This document shows, piece after piece, positions 27,092 to 32,471 of a DNA stretch of 33,500 nt. A program made the translations under genes and the position numbers. Below the pieces are notes generated by a model. It searched no databases and was not told the DNA's origin. It worked only from the letters and a program-made list of their open reading frames with translations. The stretch lies in IMG/VR virus record IMGVR_UViG_3300032282_000916, positions 1-33,500 of that record; one strand, written 5' to 3'. Source of the DNA: a virus. The first letter of the stretch is position 1, and every line of letters starts with the position of its first letter.

Positions 27092-27099
27092 TATTTATC
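27092..27099 (-). promoter_or_regulatory. Late promoter GATAAATA at the end of the helicase gene
   Basis: GATAAATAATAC on the minus strand covers the helicase stop codon (27098-27100). It would give late expression of the 81-aa protein, the internal-protein candidate and the KWDG protein, separate from early helicase expression. Confidence 0.6.
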
Positions 27100-28525
27100 A
27101 CTTTTTCAGATTGTTAAGCAGTGATTTTAGCTTACTACCCTGAACATCTGCTACTACTTTTTTGTCACTATCTTCAATATATATCCCGTCACCCACAGGA
27201 GTAACATTTGAACTAGGTTTTAATCTATTCATAATGTCATTAGAACTAGGTTGAGGATTATAGCTATTTGCCCCATCCCCGCCCTCATCGGTAATCCGCA
27301 TAGTTTCAATATTATATTCTAAATCTATTTTCTTACCAACGCCAGTTGAACTACGAGATTTCATGCACTGAATTTGATACTTTCCGCGCTCTCTCATACT
27401 ACGGCTAGTAAATATACCAAATACGTTATCTGCTGTGTTGATTTTACTAATACCACCTGATATATGACTATGATCAAATTCGATCTCTTCTACCGCAGAA
27501 CGATTTAACTGTGAAGCAGTAACAAATAACACGTTTAATTCTTTTGCTAAGTTACGTAATTCTTCACTAACATACTTATCCTTAACAAATAAATCATTAG
27601 GACTGACTTTTACTGATACTGGCATTACTAAATCTAAGTAATCAACCATAACAAAATCTACTTTGATACCGGTTTGAATTTGTACTTCCTTCAAGTATGC
27701 TCTAATATCATTGACATTTGATTGTGCTGGTAAACCCTTTACCCGATATTTACCGGCTTTTTTACCCGCCATCATAACCTTAAGAGTAGCTTGTTCGATA
27801 TCTTTACGAATTTCTTTTGTACCCATACTTGTTAACATCGCATCTGTACGTAGTGAAGTTAATTCTTCTGATAGTTCTAATGTGATATAGACACCGCTTA
27901 ACCCAACTTGTAACCAATTTAGGGCCAGATTCATCATCACAAGTGATTTACCTGAACCTGATCCTCCCGCAAAGATATTTAATTCTCCCCGGCTCATCCC
28001 GCCATACAGAATCGCATCCATCTGAGGCCATCCAGTTGATACTTGTCCGCCTGAATTAAAATACTTATTGATTCGGGTTGCCGGATCATAGAAGTAATCT
28101 GTACCCATATCTTTTTGTAAGCTGATTTGTACCGCATCTTTGATGAGCTTTTCAACTGGAGAAAAATCACCCTTTTCTAATAGGTCTGCTGATTTTAAAA
28201 TAGCACGTTCAAGTTCTTGACGTTTAGTAAATGCCTCAAACTCATCAAAAAACCATTCATAGTGCCCTTCAGTTATTTCAGGAACCGTCTCAATATCTAT
28301 CCCAGTTACAGCCTTAATCTGTGTAGAATCAGGCAAGATTTTATATTTGTCAGTATGTTCTTTAAACAATTCCGCTACCGGACGTAATACTCTATCAAAG
28401 TTCTCACTGTTCATGATATTCATTACGCGGGTATACAATTCTGCATTTGTAATCATCATACGCAGAAATAGCTTTTGTACGTCTACTGTGTAATCTAACT
28501 GCTTTTTAGAATCCTGTTTTACCAA
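27098..28525 (-). CDS. 41: Replicative DNA helicase (T4 gp41, DnaB-like)
   Basis: 475 residues, matching T4 gp41 (475). It is a hexameric 5'-3' helicase that travels on the lagging strand with gp61 primase. The N-terminal helical domain (1-130) is followed by the RecA-like core: STGWPQMDAIL, Walker A G187-GSGSGKS194, an ITLELSEELTSLR segment, Walker B FVMVDYLDL (291-299), and the ASQLNRSA motif with a GGISKINTADN loop. The start is TTG 28525 with a strong Shine-Dalgarno (AAGGA, 6 nt spacing) inside the end of the primase gene; no ATG occurs before residue 23. It overlaps the primase gene by 20 nt. Confidence 0.93.
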   Translation of the reverse strand: MVKQDSKKQLDYTVDVQKLFLRMMITNAELYTRVMNIMNSENFDRVLRPVAELFKEHTDKYKILPDSTQIKAVTGIDIETVPEITEGHYEWFFDEFEAFTKRQELERAILKSADLLEKGDFSPVEKLIKDAVQISLQKDMGTDYFYDPATRINKYFNSGGQVSTGWPQMDAILYGGMSRGELNIFAGGSGSGKSLVMMNLALNWLQVGLSGVYITLELSEELTSLRTDAMLTSMGTKEIRKDIEQATLKVMMAGKKAGKYRVKGLPAQSNVNDIRAYLKEVQIQTGIKVDFVMVDYLDLVMPVSVKVSPNDLFVKDKYVSEELRNLAKELNVLFVTASQLNRSAVEEIEFDHSHISGGISKINTADNVFGIFTSRSMRERGKYQIQCMKSRSSTGVGKKIDLEYNIETMRITDEGGDGANSYNPQPSSNDIMNRLKPSSNVTPVGDGIYIEDSDKKVVADVQGSKLKSLLNNLKK

Positions 28526-29480
28526 TTTTCTTCCTTTGCATTTCTAATTTAATTTTGCTCATAGTAGCAGATTGCAATATACTTAGTAGGGTAGGGAATT
28601 GTCCGTACTTAATCACCGCATCATTGACATCCTTAACACCAATATCCCATTCTGGAATACTAACACTATATCCAAATTCTAATGCGCGATCTATTATATC
28701 TAGCCCTGTCTTATCTCTGTCAGGTACTATAATTATTCTTCTGTTTAATTGGGCTAGCAATTGTGCTTGTTCAGTGCTTATTGTATTATGCATTAATGCA
28801 CATCCGTTAATACTTAAGGCATCGAATATTCCCTCAGTAACTATGCATACCTGCCAATTTGGTTTCTGAAAATCATATCCAAATACATAGCCCGGCTCTT
28901 GTATATTAATAAACTTTGGTATTCGATTATCTAGAAATCTACTTGTATATCCTACCAACTTACCTCTATACATATATGGGATAATAATTCTGTTTGCCAT
29001 TCTACCTGGTTCGTTTGGTGTTACTGCGAATGGTAAAATGTTTGGATCAACTTTTCTCTTTAAGAGATAATCTATGTAGACCGTATGTGCTATATTTTGT
29101 TTATCTAATGGTTCACTATCAGGTAACTCATGAGTTTTAAACTTTATTGTTTCACGCTTATATTTGGGCTGAGTGAAATCTAACAAATCTTTTTGCTGTA
29201 GACTTTCTAGGCTCCATCGTTGGATTTGCATACTATCTATACCCAACCAACCCATAAACTTTTTAGTTTTATCTCCGATACTTCGCCCTAAGGTAAAACT
29301 ACAGCTATATCCGCAATTGAAGCAATGCATAACCCAATTATTACCGTCTAGTTTTAACCCGCCGCGAGAACGCTTATCTGATCGATGTCCTCGTTTATCA
29401 CAACATACGGCATTGAAACTATACCATCCACTATGAGATAGTTTTTTTCTTCCCGGTATTAAAGACATAATATCAAACAT
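28506..29480 (-). CDS. 61: DNA primase (T4 gp61-like, DnaG type)
   Basis: 324 residues (T4 gp61 is 342). It makes RNA primers with gp41. Zinc ligands C27, H32, C53 and C56 form the N-terminal zinc-binding domain (C26 is adjacent). A linker and catalytic core follow: IIIPYMYRGKLVGYTSR (166-181), then the TOPRIM fold with T215-E216-G217-IFDA and D254-R-D256-KTG. Two starts are possible: ATG 29480, which coincides with the transcription start of a sigma70-like promoter, and ATG 29468 (MSLIPGRKK). Neither has a clear Shine-Dalgarno. The second removes only four residues and lies in the arm of a 9-bp inverted repeat. Confidence 0.9.
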   Translation of the reverse strand: MFDIMSLIPGRKKLSHSGWYSFNAVCCDKRGHRSDKRSRGGLKLDGNNWVMHCFNCGYSCSFTLGRSIGDKTKKFMGWLGIDSMQIQRWSLESLQQKDLLDFTQPKYKRETIKFKTHELPDSEPLDKQNIAHTVYIDYLLKRKVDPNILPFAVTPNEPGRMANRIIIPYMYRGKLVGYTSRFLDNRIPKFINIQEPGYVFGYDFQKPNWQVCIVTEGIFDALSINGCALMHNTISTEQAQLLAQLNRRIIIVPDRDKTGLDIIDRALEFGYSVSIPEWDIGVKDVNDAVIKYGQFPTLLSILQSATMSKIKLEMQRKKIGKTGF

Positions 29481-30344: not shown

Positions 30345-30725
30345 ATGCTGCATAAAGATTTCTTTGATCGACTTACTGAAAATCATCCATTCATAACGGT
30401 GTGTTCCTACGCCAACCAAGATTATGTCGGTATCGTACAGAACCGAGATGATATAGTAACTACTATCTATGACTACGGTTCTATAGTCAATCCTATATTA
30501 CGCGAAAGATTTTTAGAATTAGGTGATATTTGGTGGTGGGAAAGTAATCGTCTAGTCCCAATAAACATGTTTCTAAAGACCGAATGGGGTGATTTTAAGC
30601 CATATATTAGAACATTTAACAATAAAAGTCTAATAATACTGCATGGGCCTATCTGTAGTATGCTAGAACTCAATAAACGTAAGAGTAAGCGTAAATCTAT
30701 TACCCTAGTCAAGCGTATCAGTTAA
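30345..30725 (+). CDS. Conserved T4-like protein (LHKDFF...WWWESN family), unknown
   Basis: 126 residues. The start LHKDFFDRLTENHPFITV, the central LELGDIWWWESNR then PINMFL, and the basic C terminus (KRKSKRKSITLVKRIS) form a pattern shared by an unnamed family of T4-like phages. Compact alpha/beta, basic at the end, no catalytic motif; possibly nucleic-acid-binding. It is a lone plus-strand gene between minus-strand blocks, and its 3' end overlaps the convergent mini-DnaE gene by 21 nt. Confidence 0.75.
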   Translation: MLHKDFFDRLTENHPFITVCSYANQDYVGIVQNRDDIVTTIYDYGSIVNPILRERFLELGDIWWWESNRLVPINMFLKTEWGDFKPYIRTFNNKSLIILHGPICSMLELNKRKSKRKSITLVKRIS

Positions 30726-31280
30726 CAAATTCATATTAACCGATACTAAAACCGCATAGGAAATACTATGTGATTTTTTAAAGACATATCCCTCATTATC
30801 CTTTTCCCATACTGTTTTAGCTACTTCTGACCAAACTTTCCCTACAAGATGCTTTTTCCCTGGACGTATAATAGCCAACATCATTGCTAATCTTGGGATT
30901 GAATCTACCGGTTCAGGCATTCTATGTATTGTATCGTAATGATTGCCTAAATGTAGCAACTTTTCTACGAATGGCCGATCATTTAACTTAGTCCAGTTTG
31001 GTTCTCGCATCAGATATTTTAAGTGTTCCTCATCTTTTACCTGATTATACAGATGTACATTCAATAAGTCTAGCTTAAAATACCCACGATCTTCTGCTTC
31101 AGTATAGTCGATATTAGCCATATCATTTATAGCATCATAGGGAATATCAGTAACATATACCCCGGTTGCGTGTTTACGAATAGGACTTACATTCCGCATC
31201 GCCGCAGGTATATGTTGGATATGTTGAAGAATTTTATCTCTATCCCCAAAGTCAATATCTACATCTGAGTTAAACTTCAT
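30705..31280 (-). CDS. Miniature DnaE-like (Pol III alpha) protein
   Basis: 191 residues, yet it carries in the correct order the signatures of the C-family polymerase catalytic region. D6-V-D8-I-D10-F11 resembles the PDFDVDF site that holds two catalytic Asp in E. coli DnaE; KHATGV (36-41) resembles HAGGV; F68-K69-L70-D71-L72-L73 resembles KFDFLGL with the third catalytic Asp; R139-P-G-K142 resembles RPGP; and F167-K-K-S-H-S172 ... Y175-A resembles FNKSHSAAYA. The intervals are about half those of DnaE, and the PHP, beta-binding and OB domains are absent. It is the last gene of the accessory operon; ATG 31280 overlaps the RmlC stop as TAATG. Activity is unknown. Confidence 0.75.
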   Translation of the reverse strand: MKFNSDVDIDFGDRDKILQHIQHIPAAMRNVSPIRKHATGVYVTDIPYDAINDMANIDYTEAEDRGYFKLDLLNVHLYNQVKDEEHLKYLMREPNWTKLNDRPFVEKLLHLGNHYDTIHRMPEPVDSIPRLAMMLAIIRPGKKHLVGKVWSEVAKTVWEKDNEGYVFKKSHSISYAVLVSVNMNLLTDTLD

Positions 31281-31741
31281 TAGGCATCTTTATCAGATAG
31301 AATAGGATAGGACTTATATGGCCAATCTATAGAATAGCCATCCCATCTAAAATTTTCTTCTAGAGGTTTATTGTATGGCATATCAACTACATATTGTACT
31401 AATGATGTTTCAGATAACACCAAATATCCATGGGCATATTGAGGTGGAATAAACAATGCATTGGTATTGTCTAGTATTACACCAAACCATTTGTTAGATT
31501 CTACATCCAATGCAACATCAAATATCTCGCCAACAAGAGGTATTACTAGTTTGGATTGATCTTGTCTGTGCATACCTCTTAGGACATTATGAGTTGATGA
31601 TGCTAGATTGATTTGCCTAAATGTTCCTCGCATTTTATCAGAGTTACTTTTCCAAAGTTCACAGAAATCTCCTCGCGAATCTTTAAATTTAGTATGAGTG
31701 ATAACTTCTACCCCTGGTAACGGTTCACCGTATGTTTTCAT
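31280..31741 (-). CDS. rmlC: RmlC-like dTDP-4-dehydrorhamnose 3,5-epimerase/cupin
   Basis: 153 residues, somewhat shorter than typical RmlC (about 180). The jelly-roll signatures are present: DSRGDFCELW (21-30), L54-R-G-M-H58 with the catalytic-type His, K64, PLVGEIFDVALDV (68-80), FIPPQYAHGYLVLSE (97-111) and a VQYVVDMPY segment (115-123) with the Tyr region. RmlC acts in dTDP-L-rhamnose synthesis; no other rhamnose gene is in the window, so the phage enzyme may modify a host pool or a different keto-sugar. It overlaps the exonuclease by 4 nt (ATGA) and the mini-DnaE start by 1 nt (TAATG). Confidence 0.85.
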   Translation of the reverse strand: MKTYGEPLPGVEVITHTKFKDSRGDFCELWKSNSDKMRGTFRQINLASSTHNVLRGMHRQDQSKLVIPLVGEIFDVALDVESNKWFGVILDNTNALFIPPQYAHGYLVLSETSLVQYVVDMPYNKPLEENFRWDGYSIDWPYKSYPILSDKDA

Positions 31742-32283
31742 GTAATTAACCCCGCTTTTATAAATTTTCTATATGCATCCTGTACTACGATTGCCTGTCT
31801 TTCTGCATCTTCTACTGCTTTGTGTGTGGTAACATGACCACCATCTTTTAGCTTTACCCCGGCAACTTCATAGAGGGTACGTGTATCACGTACTGTATAG
31901 AAGGGCCATGGTATACGCATATCAAGTTGTCTCCACGCTGTCTCCATTACTACGCAGTCAAAGGATGCGCCATTTGACCATACTGCACGCCTATTCCAAC
32001 AGAACTTATACAAACGGTCCATGCATTCTTTGAATGGTATTCTATCTCTATCACCCAATGCTTCTTCTTGTGCAGCTTCACTTTGTGTACTCCACCACCG
32101 TAGCGTATCATCATTGATAACTCTGTTGTATTTTTCTGTCTGTTCTTCAATTGTAGGACGTAATTCAAGTTTCTCTACAATTCCCATACCTTTTGGATCA
32201 AATCTAACTGCACCAATAGTCAATATAACACAATACGGGCTTGTGTCTAGTGACTCAATATCTATCATAATATCGTTACTCAA
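31738..32283 (-). CDS. DEDD-family 3'-5' exonuclease (DnaQ/DexA/Rv2179c-like)
   Basis: 181 residues from TTG 32283. Active-site residues: D8 and E10 (IMIDIESLD), D109 (SNGASFD), H154 and D159 (HKAVEDAERQA), a DEDDh arrangement. RWWSTQ near 62-67 and the ILTIGAVRFDP strand are typical of the Rv2179c-like/T4 DexA group. It degrades DNA or RNA from the 3' end. Start choice: TTG has AAGGA 6 nt upstream, nearly the same initiation site as the helicase gene; GTG 32298 and ATG 32268 are alternatives. It lies in one operon with the mini-DnaE, separated only by rmlC. Confidence 0.87.
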   Translation of the reverse strand: MSNDIMIDIESLDTSPYCVILTIGAVRFDPKGMGIVEKLELRPTIEEQTEKYNRVINDDTLRWWSTQSEAAQEEALGDRDRIPFKECMDRLYKFCWNRRAVWSNGASFDCVVMETAWRQLDMRIPWPFYTVRDTRTLYEVAGVKLKDGGHVTTHKAVEDAERQAIVVQDAYRKFIKAGLIT

Positions 32284-32285
32284 TT

Positions 32286-32471
32286 TTATTCCTTCCACAT
32301 TTCATACATTAGTTGAAGTCTAGTATCATCTATATCTATTATAACATTACCTCTGGTAAGATAGAAGTCCCAACCAGCACCGCGGTACCCAAAATTTCTA
32401 CGAAGCCATCTTACAATATCTGCAGGATCTTCTTTTTTCTCTTTACATTGATAGATATATTGTTTTCTCAT
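32286..32471 (-). CDS. Small hypothetical protein
   Basis: 61 residues: MRKQYIYQCKEKKEDPADIV, then WLRRNFGYRGAGWDFYL, a short strand RGNVIIDI and a helix to the end. No family recognised. The start overlaps the upstream stop as ATGA, and the stop lies just before the exonuclease start, with the gene's last codons supplying that gene's Shine-Dalgarno. The tight coupling supports it as a real gene. Confidence 0.65.
   Translation of the reverse strand: MRKQYIYQCKEKKEDPADIVRWLRRNFGYRGAGWDFYLTRGNVIIDIDDTRLQLMYEMWKE

Follow-up and report, generated by a model that had tools for sequence, protein, structure and literature searches.

The window analyzed here is a 33,500-nucleotide fragment (IMG/VR record IMGVR_UViG_3300032282_000916) from an uncultured relative of the group 2.2 jumbo phages. 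It encodes, on the minus strand and opposite a stop-ridden plus-strand frame, a protein of 191 residues that raises the question of what so small a product might do with the signature motifs of the catalytic region of the bacterial replicase DnaE. A preliminary description had listed five such motifs in DnaE order, along with counterparts of the three catalytic aspartates, and had read the protein as a stripped-down C-family core acting either as a minimal polymerase or nucleotidyltransferase or as a decoy for host Pol III partners. All five motifs lie at the residues it gave (Table 1), and their order exceeds chance. Combining sequence with structure models, we assign a probability of about 0.8 to the reading that this protein is the C-terminal half (C half) of a split, minimal C-family (Pol III alpha-like) catalytic core, whose N-terminal half (N half) would be the product of a separate gene.

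Many giant phages of the T4-like type have this arrangement, which was predicted in 2021 by Iyer et al. (Viruses 13:63, PMC7824862), who described a “split, minimal Pol III alpha” for jumbo phages of group 2.2, with C-terminal metal/template-binding and N-terminal NTP-binding halves encoded by distant genes, a family B polymerase alongside, and no further Pol III domains. As far as the text of that paper permits a comparison, its proteins and ours are the same, with no difference in kind, and the window gene is a further example; the corresponding PHROG families are phrog_11778 (C half) and phrog_11127 (N half). In the portions available of two genome papers, the truncated “Pol III alpha” CBB_328 of phage CBB (PMC5259590) and the reported Pol III alpha gp316 of Atu_ph07 (PMC6102473) are equivalent to this pair's N half; these portions mention the N half only, and one of the papers called it truncated. 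In the literature searched, we found neither an experimental or biochemical study of the split pair nor a transcriptome mentioning the C-half gene. To the 2021 prediction we add the exact cut point, a residue-level match to DnaE, models of both structures, synteny, an estimate of selection, and scale.

Table 1. Positions of the C-half gene, its motifs, and neighboring genes in the window (DnaE residues in E. coli numbering)
Feature	Position	Strand	Remarks
Putative C half of split minimal Pol III alpha-like polymerase, phrog_11778	30705..31280	minus	191-aa ORF
DVDIDF, residues 6-11	31248..31265	minus	DnaE D401, D403, D405; alignment
KHATGV, residues 36-41	31158..31175	minus	DnaE KHAGGV (H511, G514); hhalign
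FKLDLL, residues 68-73	31062..31079	minus	DnaE KFDFL(G) (K553, D555); hhalign
RPGK, residues 139-142	30855..30866	minus	DnaE RPGP (R639, P640); hhalign
FKKSHSISYA, residues 167-176	30753..30782	minus	DnaE FNKSHSAAYA (H760); HMMER alignment
Convergent neighbor, 126 aa, phrog_11637 (E 1.4e-27)	30345..30725	plus	3' end overlaps the C-half gene by 21 bp
DNA primase (Toprim; gp61-like)	28506..29480	minus	phrog_47 E 5.5e-37; PF13155
DnaB-like replicative helicase (gp41-like)	27098..28525	minus	phrog_19 E 1.7e-68; PF03796
Rv2179c-like 3'-5' exonuclease, upstream of C half	31738..32298	minus	PF16473 E 1e-33
dTDP-4-dehydrorhamnose 3,5-epimerase, directly upstream of C half	31280-31741	minus	One-base overlap with the C-half start

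Relationship of the C half to DnaE

Searched as a single sequence against Pfam, NCBIfam, and the PDB, the 191-residue protein gave no match, a result consistent with the GenBank labels of its family, which are mostly hypothetical and otherwise membrane protein or DNA polymerase. It matches phrog_11778 (“DNA polymerase”) with an E value of 2e-55, and its homology to DnaE becomes visible only when profiles or structures are compared. Relatives of nearly full length are found in 63 phage records at 33 to 49% identity (the C halves of cultured phages likewise being 33 to 49% identical to that of the window), and IMG/VR adds at least several hundred contigs. Copies in bacterial collections amount to 11 contigs among 84,980 species genomes, all of them in metagenome-assembled genomes, and these are probably phage contigs.

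In hhalign, 62 phage C halves aligned with five DnaE proteins with a probability of 96.5% and a significant P value of 7.7e-10. In E. coli numbering, D6, D8, and D71 are equivalent to the catalytic D401, D403, and D555, H37 to H511, K69 to K553, R139/P140 to R639/P640, and H171 to H760, so that the proposed counterparts of the three aspartates are upheld. HMMER matches follow one another in order on E. coli DnaE, from an N-terminal strand (residues 402 to 419) through a middle segment (608 to 641) to a C-terminal motif (739 to 767), each being weak singly. A further parallel comes from Mycobacterium smegmatis DnaE1, which has its catalytic residues at 424, 426, and 590 and its template groove lined by D431/R432, just past the strand (PMC12641269); the C half has D13/R14 at an equal spacing, with R14 present in 199 of the 208 sequences.

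The AlphaFold2 model of the C half, built with 62 sequences, has a pLDDT of 94.7, and its best eight Foldseek matches are all DnaE (probability 0.91 to 1.00), with all others at or below 0.08. The structures compared were Taq DnaE (3E0D), Mycobacterium tuberculosis DnaE (5LEW/7PU7), and PolC. VIA-align superposed 185 to 188 of the 191 residues on DnaE (Z 6.2 to 9.3, rmsd 3.6 to 3.9) and 183 to 186 on PolC; the model spans residues 459 to 837 of Taq DnaE (the best Z of 9.3, over 187 residues), or 397 to 780 of the E. coli protein. As the preliminary description had anticipated, the prediction shows a Pol III palm fold joined by a portion of the fingers, and the model superposes on DnaE throughout its length. 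D6/D8 and D71 fall on or at the edge of model strands 7 to 11 and 70 to 74, and both the model and the alignment indicate that the C half comprises both catalytic palm strands together with shortened fingers. The thumb is missing, with 26 residues from D10 to H37 as against 105 from D405 to H511 in DnaE. The fingers are likewise short, with 32 residues from R139 to H171 as against 121, and the stretch bearing DnaE R709 and K714, which are invariant in a small DnaE alignment, is gone.

Thirteen residues (D6, D8, D10, H37, G40, P47, K69, D71, W96, R139, P140, K142, and H171) never vary among 208 unique full-length C halves, a count that is partly biased by the inclusion of the DIDID motif in one of the scan patterns, and Y175 is kept in 205 of 207. 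The first of the scans used six stretches across the protein, of which only MKFNSDVD touches the DIDID motif, and the second used the FKKSH motif only. The three catalytic aspartates, identical in 208 of 208 relatives, are invariant also in an alignment of 16 sequences, among them those of ten named phages identified with tblastn, which are free of this bias. Of the outcomes that would have told against the preliminary description, neither an unlike fold nor poor conservation of the aspartates was seen. Ten of the equivalent positions (D401, D403, D405, H511, G514, K553, D555, R639, P640, and H760) are invariant in the small DnaE alignment as well. The dN/dS ratio is about 0.06 for the C half (median of close pairs, a rough value, as synonymous sites are close to saturation) and about 0.08 for the N half, so that both are under purifying selection.

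The complementary N half

The C half begins only five residues ahead of the catalytic DxD; hence, the GRGS nucleotide-binding motif, which the C half lacks, and the initial half of the palm that bears it must be supplied from elsewhere. A separate gene of the phrog_11127 family encodes a protein of 168 to 182 aa that carries GRGS and matches PF07733 (E 7.5e-9); an example of its C-terminal end is GVGRGSSVASYVLYLIGVHRINSLHYDLSIDEFLK. In hhalign, the N half aligns with DnaE residues 318 to 393 (P 1.1e-8), and residues 68 to 168 of its AlphaFold2 model (pLDDT 92.8) superpose on DnaE over the E. coli range 278 to 393, the highest Z being 12.4. No DnaE counterpart was matched for residues 1 to 67 of the N half; these (e.g., L112:3001-3201) are confidently predicted and occupy the place of the PHP domain in cellular DnaE. 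Among the columns that are invariant in an alignment of 97 N halves, R362, G363, S364, and S368 are invariant in DnaE too. The two halves are complementary, in that the N half stops at DnaE residue 393 and the C half starts at 396/397, with a loss of two or three residues; DnaE R390 and R396, on either side of the cut, are not conserved in the halves.

Like bacterial DnaE and PolC, the split pair has the palm fold, the Asp triad, and the KHAGGV, RPGP, and FNKSHS motifs in that order. However, DnaE is a single chain of more than 1,100 residues, whereas the pair amounts to about 290 DnaE-like residues on two chains, with shortened fingers and without the PHP, thumb, HhH, OB, and C-terminal domains. 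Searches for PHP (PF02811) and HHH_6 (PF14579) found neither in 17 genomes of the group; the same searches were positive in control bacteria.

A fused gene was not found among 252 C-half and 206 N-half ORFs, and none of 457 loci contains an ORF pair or single ORF with both halves. The only single-chain candidate, a 559-residue DnaE-like polymerase that lacks the PHP domain and is encoded in one contig (L469:1890-3569; G015:C1 about 54889-56568, plus strand), was rejected as a separate and more DnaE-like protein. Like the split pair, it is without a PHP domain, starting right at the palm, and it has the GRGS equivalent and DIDLDF, though on one chain; unlike the pair, it has longer fingers and a C-terminal extension and lies nearer to ordinary DnaE (phrog_405, E 1e-67). 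A relative of 574 aa is present in the uncultured phage LR756508. As contig G015 has a B-family polymerase in addition to this enzyme and the split pair, three polymerases are present in one phage. N-half matches were also seen at the C-terminal end of the phrog_7513 and phrog_13169 profiles (461 and 463 aa); these and phrog_21652 are phage profiles that end near, or partly cover, the Pol III palm, and they may represent further split DnaE enzymes.

Genomic context of the two halves

All 11 named phages examined whole hold exactly one C half and one N half plus a B-family polymerase, the replicase that the preliminary description had ascribed to T4-like phages; the B-family enzyme is also present in 15 of 22 long contigs of relatives. 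Across 33 long records, the C half was found in 29 and the N half in 30. By tblastn, the N half is present in 58 of the 60 phage records among the C-half matches listed, and the two exceptions are sister phages, one of which has an N half by profile. A PF07733 match accompanies the C half in 7 of 10 long contigs, and the remaining three contigs end too early. As the sample consists of related phages, co-occurrence by itself is no proof of interaction.

Most contigs that share the layout of the window's clade place the N half 35 to 54 kb downstream, on the strand of the C half, and others place it over 100 kb away or 12 to 16 kb upstream. Its absence from the window is to be expected, since only about 30.7 kb of the 33.5-kb record lies downstream of the C half; going by synteny in the relatives, the N half of this phage would lie past the left end of the window. 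The B-family match, too, extends over two ORFs (of about 560 to 580 and 320 to 420 aa) in Atu_ph07 (NC_042013, 212336-213688), Slicko01 (OQ508956, 3529-5033), and contigs G016, G020, and G023, and polymerase genes thus seem to have been repeatedly split in this group.

The order in relatives is the C half, then phrog_11637, and then the primase and gp41-like helicase downstream. The phrog_11637 gene adjoins the C half in 233 of 238 loci with room and is convergent in all 239 where it was found; it is a deeply conserved neighbor, and the 3' ends of the two genes often overlap, by 4 to 60 bp. The N half adjoins a clamp-loader gene in six phages and, in the window's relatives, stands beside a gene read from sequence and annotation as GroES-like. 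The Rv2179c-like exonuclease is conceivably a proofreading subunit, but it accompanies the C half in no more than about half of the loci with room (103 of 211). The epimerase accompanies the C half in just 6 of 251 loci and was therefore probably inserted recently among the replication genes.

Possible activity of the pair

Given that all 11 named phages have the GRGS half as a co-occurring separate gene, the unit is in all likelihood an enzyme made of two proteins. The N half would supply the GRGS nucleotide-binding loop and the C half D6/D8/D71 and the shortened fingers, and the two chains most likely fold together noncovalently, so that their roughly 290 DnaE-like residues would form one active site. 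Thus, the stripped-down C-family core of the preliminary description holds with respect to homology and fold but is incomplete, half of its palm being encoded elsewhere. With the palm and part of the fingers rebuilt, the retained active-site residues invariant, and the genes set among those for replication, we regard a split polymerase as the best explanation. The loss of the thumb, the clamp-binding parts, and the fingers segment with R709/K714 leads us to expect low processivity. The likely job would be short, non-processive synthesis, for example to extend primers or fill gaps, alongside the B-family enzyme that serves as the main replicase, an assignment whose chances we judge to be roughly balanced.

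The main rival to this split polymerase is that the halves form an active nucleotidyltransferase rather than a templated polymerase, with ends, a protein, or a small molecule as the acceptor. The thumb and part of the fingers, including R709-K714, would then have been lost because no template is read, the metal-binding and GRGS residues would be invariant as observed, and a B-family replicase is present regardless. Nevertheless, invariance extends to the equivalents of K553, R639/P640, and H760, residues that surround the nascent base pair in DnaE, and the C half is placed beside the primase and helicase and the N half beside the clamp loader; we therefore consider this alternative unlikely, though not negligible. 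The missing thumb, fingers stretch, and R390/R396 do mean that the pair may not hold the primer-template or dNTP in the manner of DnaE, and with the PHP, HhH, thumb, and part of the fingers all gone, templated synthesis is probable, not certain.

Explanations that dispense with the N half fare considerably worse. That the C half is by itself a mini-polymerase or nucleotidyltransferase, as had been suggested, would accord with its three catalytic aspartates and its confident fold prediction as a single chain; it is very improbable in view of the missing GRGS half of the palm, which co-occurs as a gene cut just where the C half starts. Host replication is a frequent phage target, and the small size of the C half and its likeness to a host replisome subunit might suggest a noncatalytic decoy or regulator binding host Pol III partners, the other role initially proposed. 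The case for it is weak and its likelihood just as slight, since the partner-binding parts of DnaE are absent and the catalytic residues are invariant in 208 sequences, the opposite of what a decoy would lead one to expect. About half of the homologous DnaE region is gone, as might befit a bacterial dnaE that was captured and is now in decay; we reject decay, which the preliminary description had likewise disfavored, on the dN/dS of about 0.06, and the invariant active site, the hundreds of intact copies, and the conserved position leave it hardly any probability.

Going by sequence and model, we tentatively propose, at somewhat less than even chances, that the two halves constitute the smallest C-family polymerase known, acting either as a nucleotidyltransferase that needs no template or, in primer extension or gap filling, as the partner of the B-family enzyme. 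In the latter role, the pair would be a phage counterpart of the DnaE/PolC hand-off. The exact complementary boundaries, together with mutants, make a bench test of the 2021 prediction direct. If the halves are active together, they would show how little of a bacterial replicase suffices for catalysis and would provide a small, easily made model enzyme; it would also follow that polymerases of two unrelated families work in parallel throughout a large group of phages.
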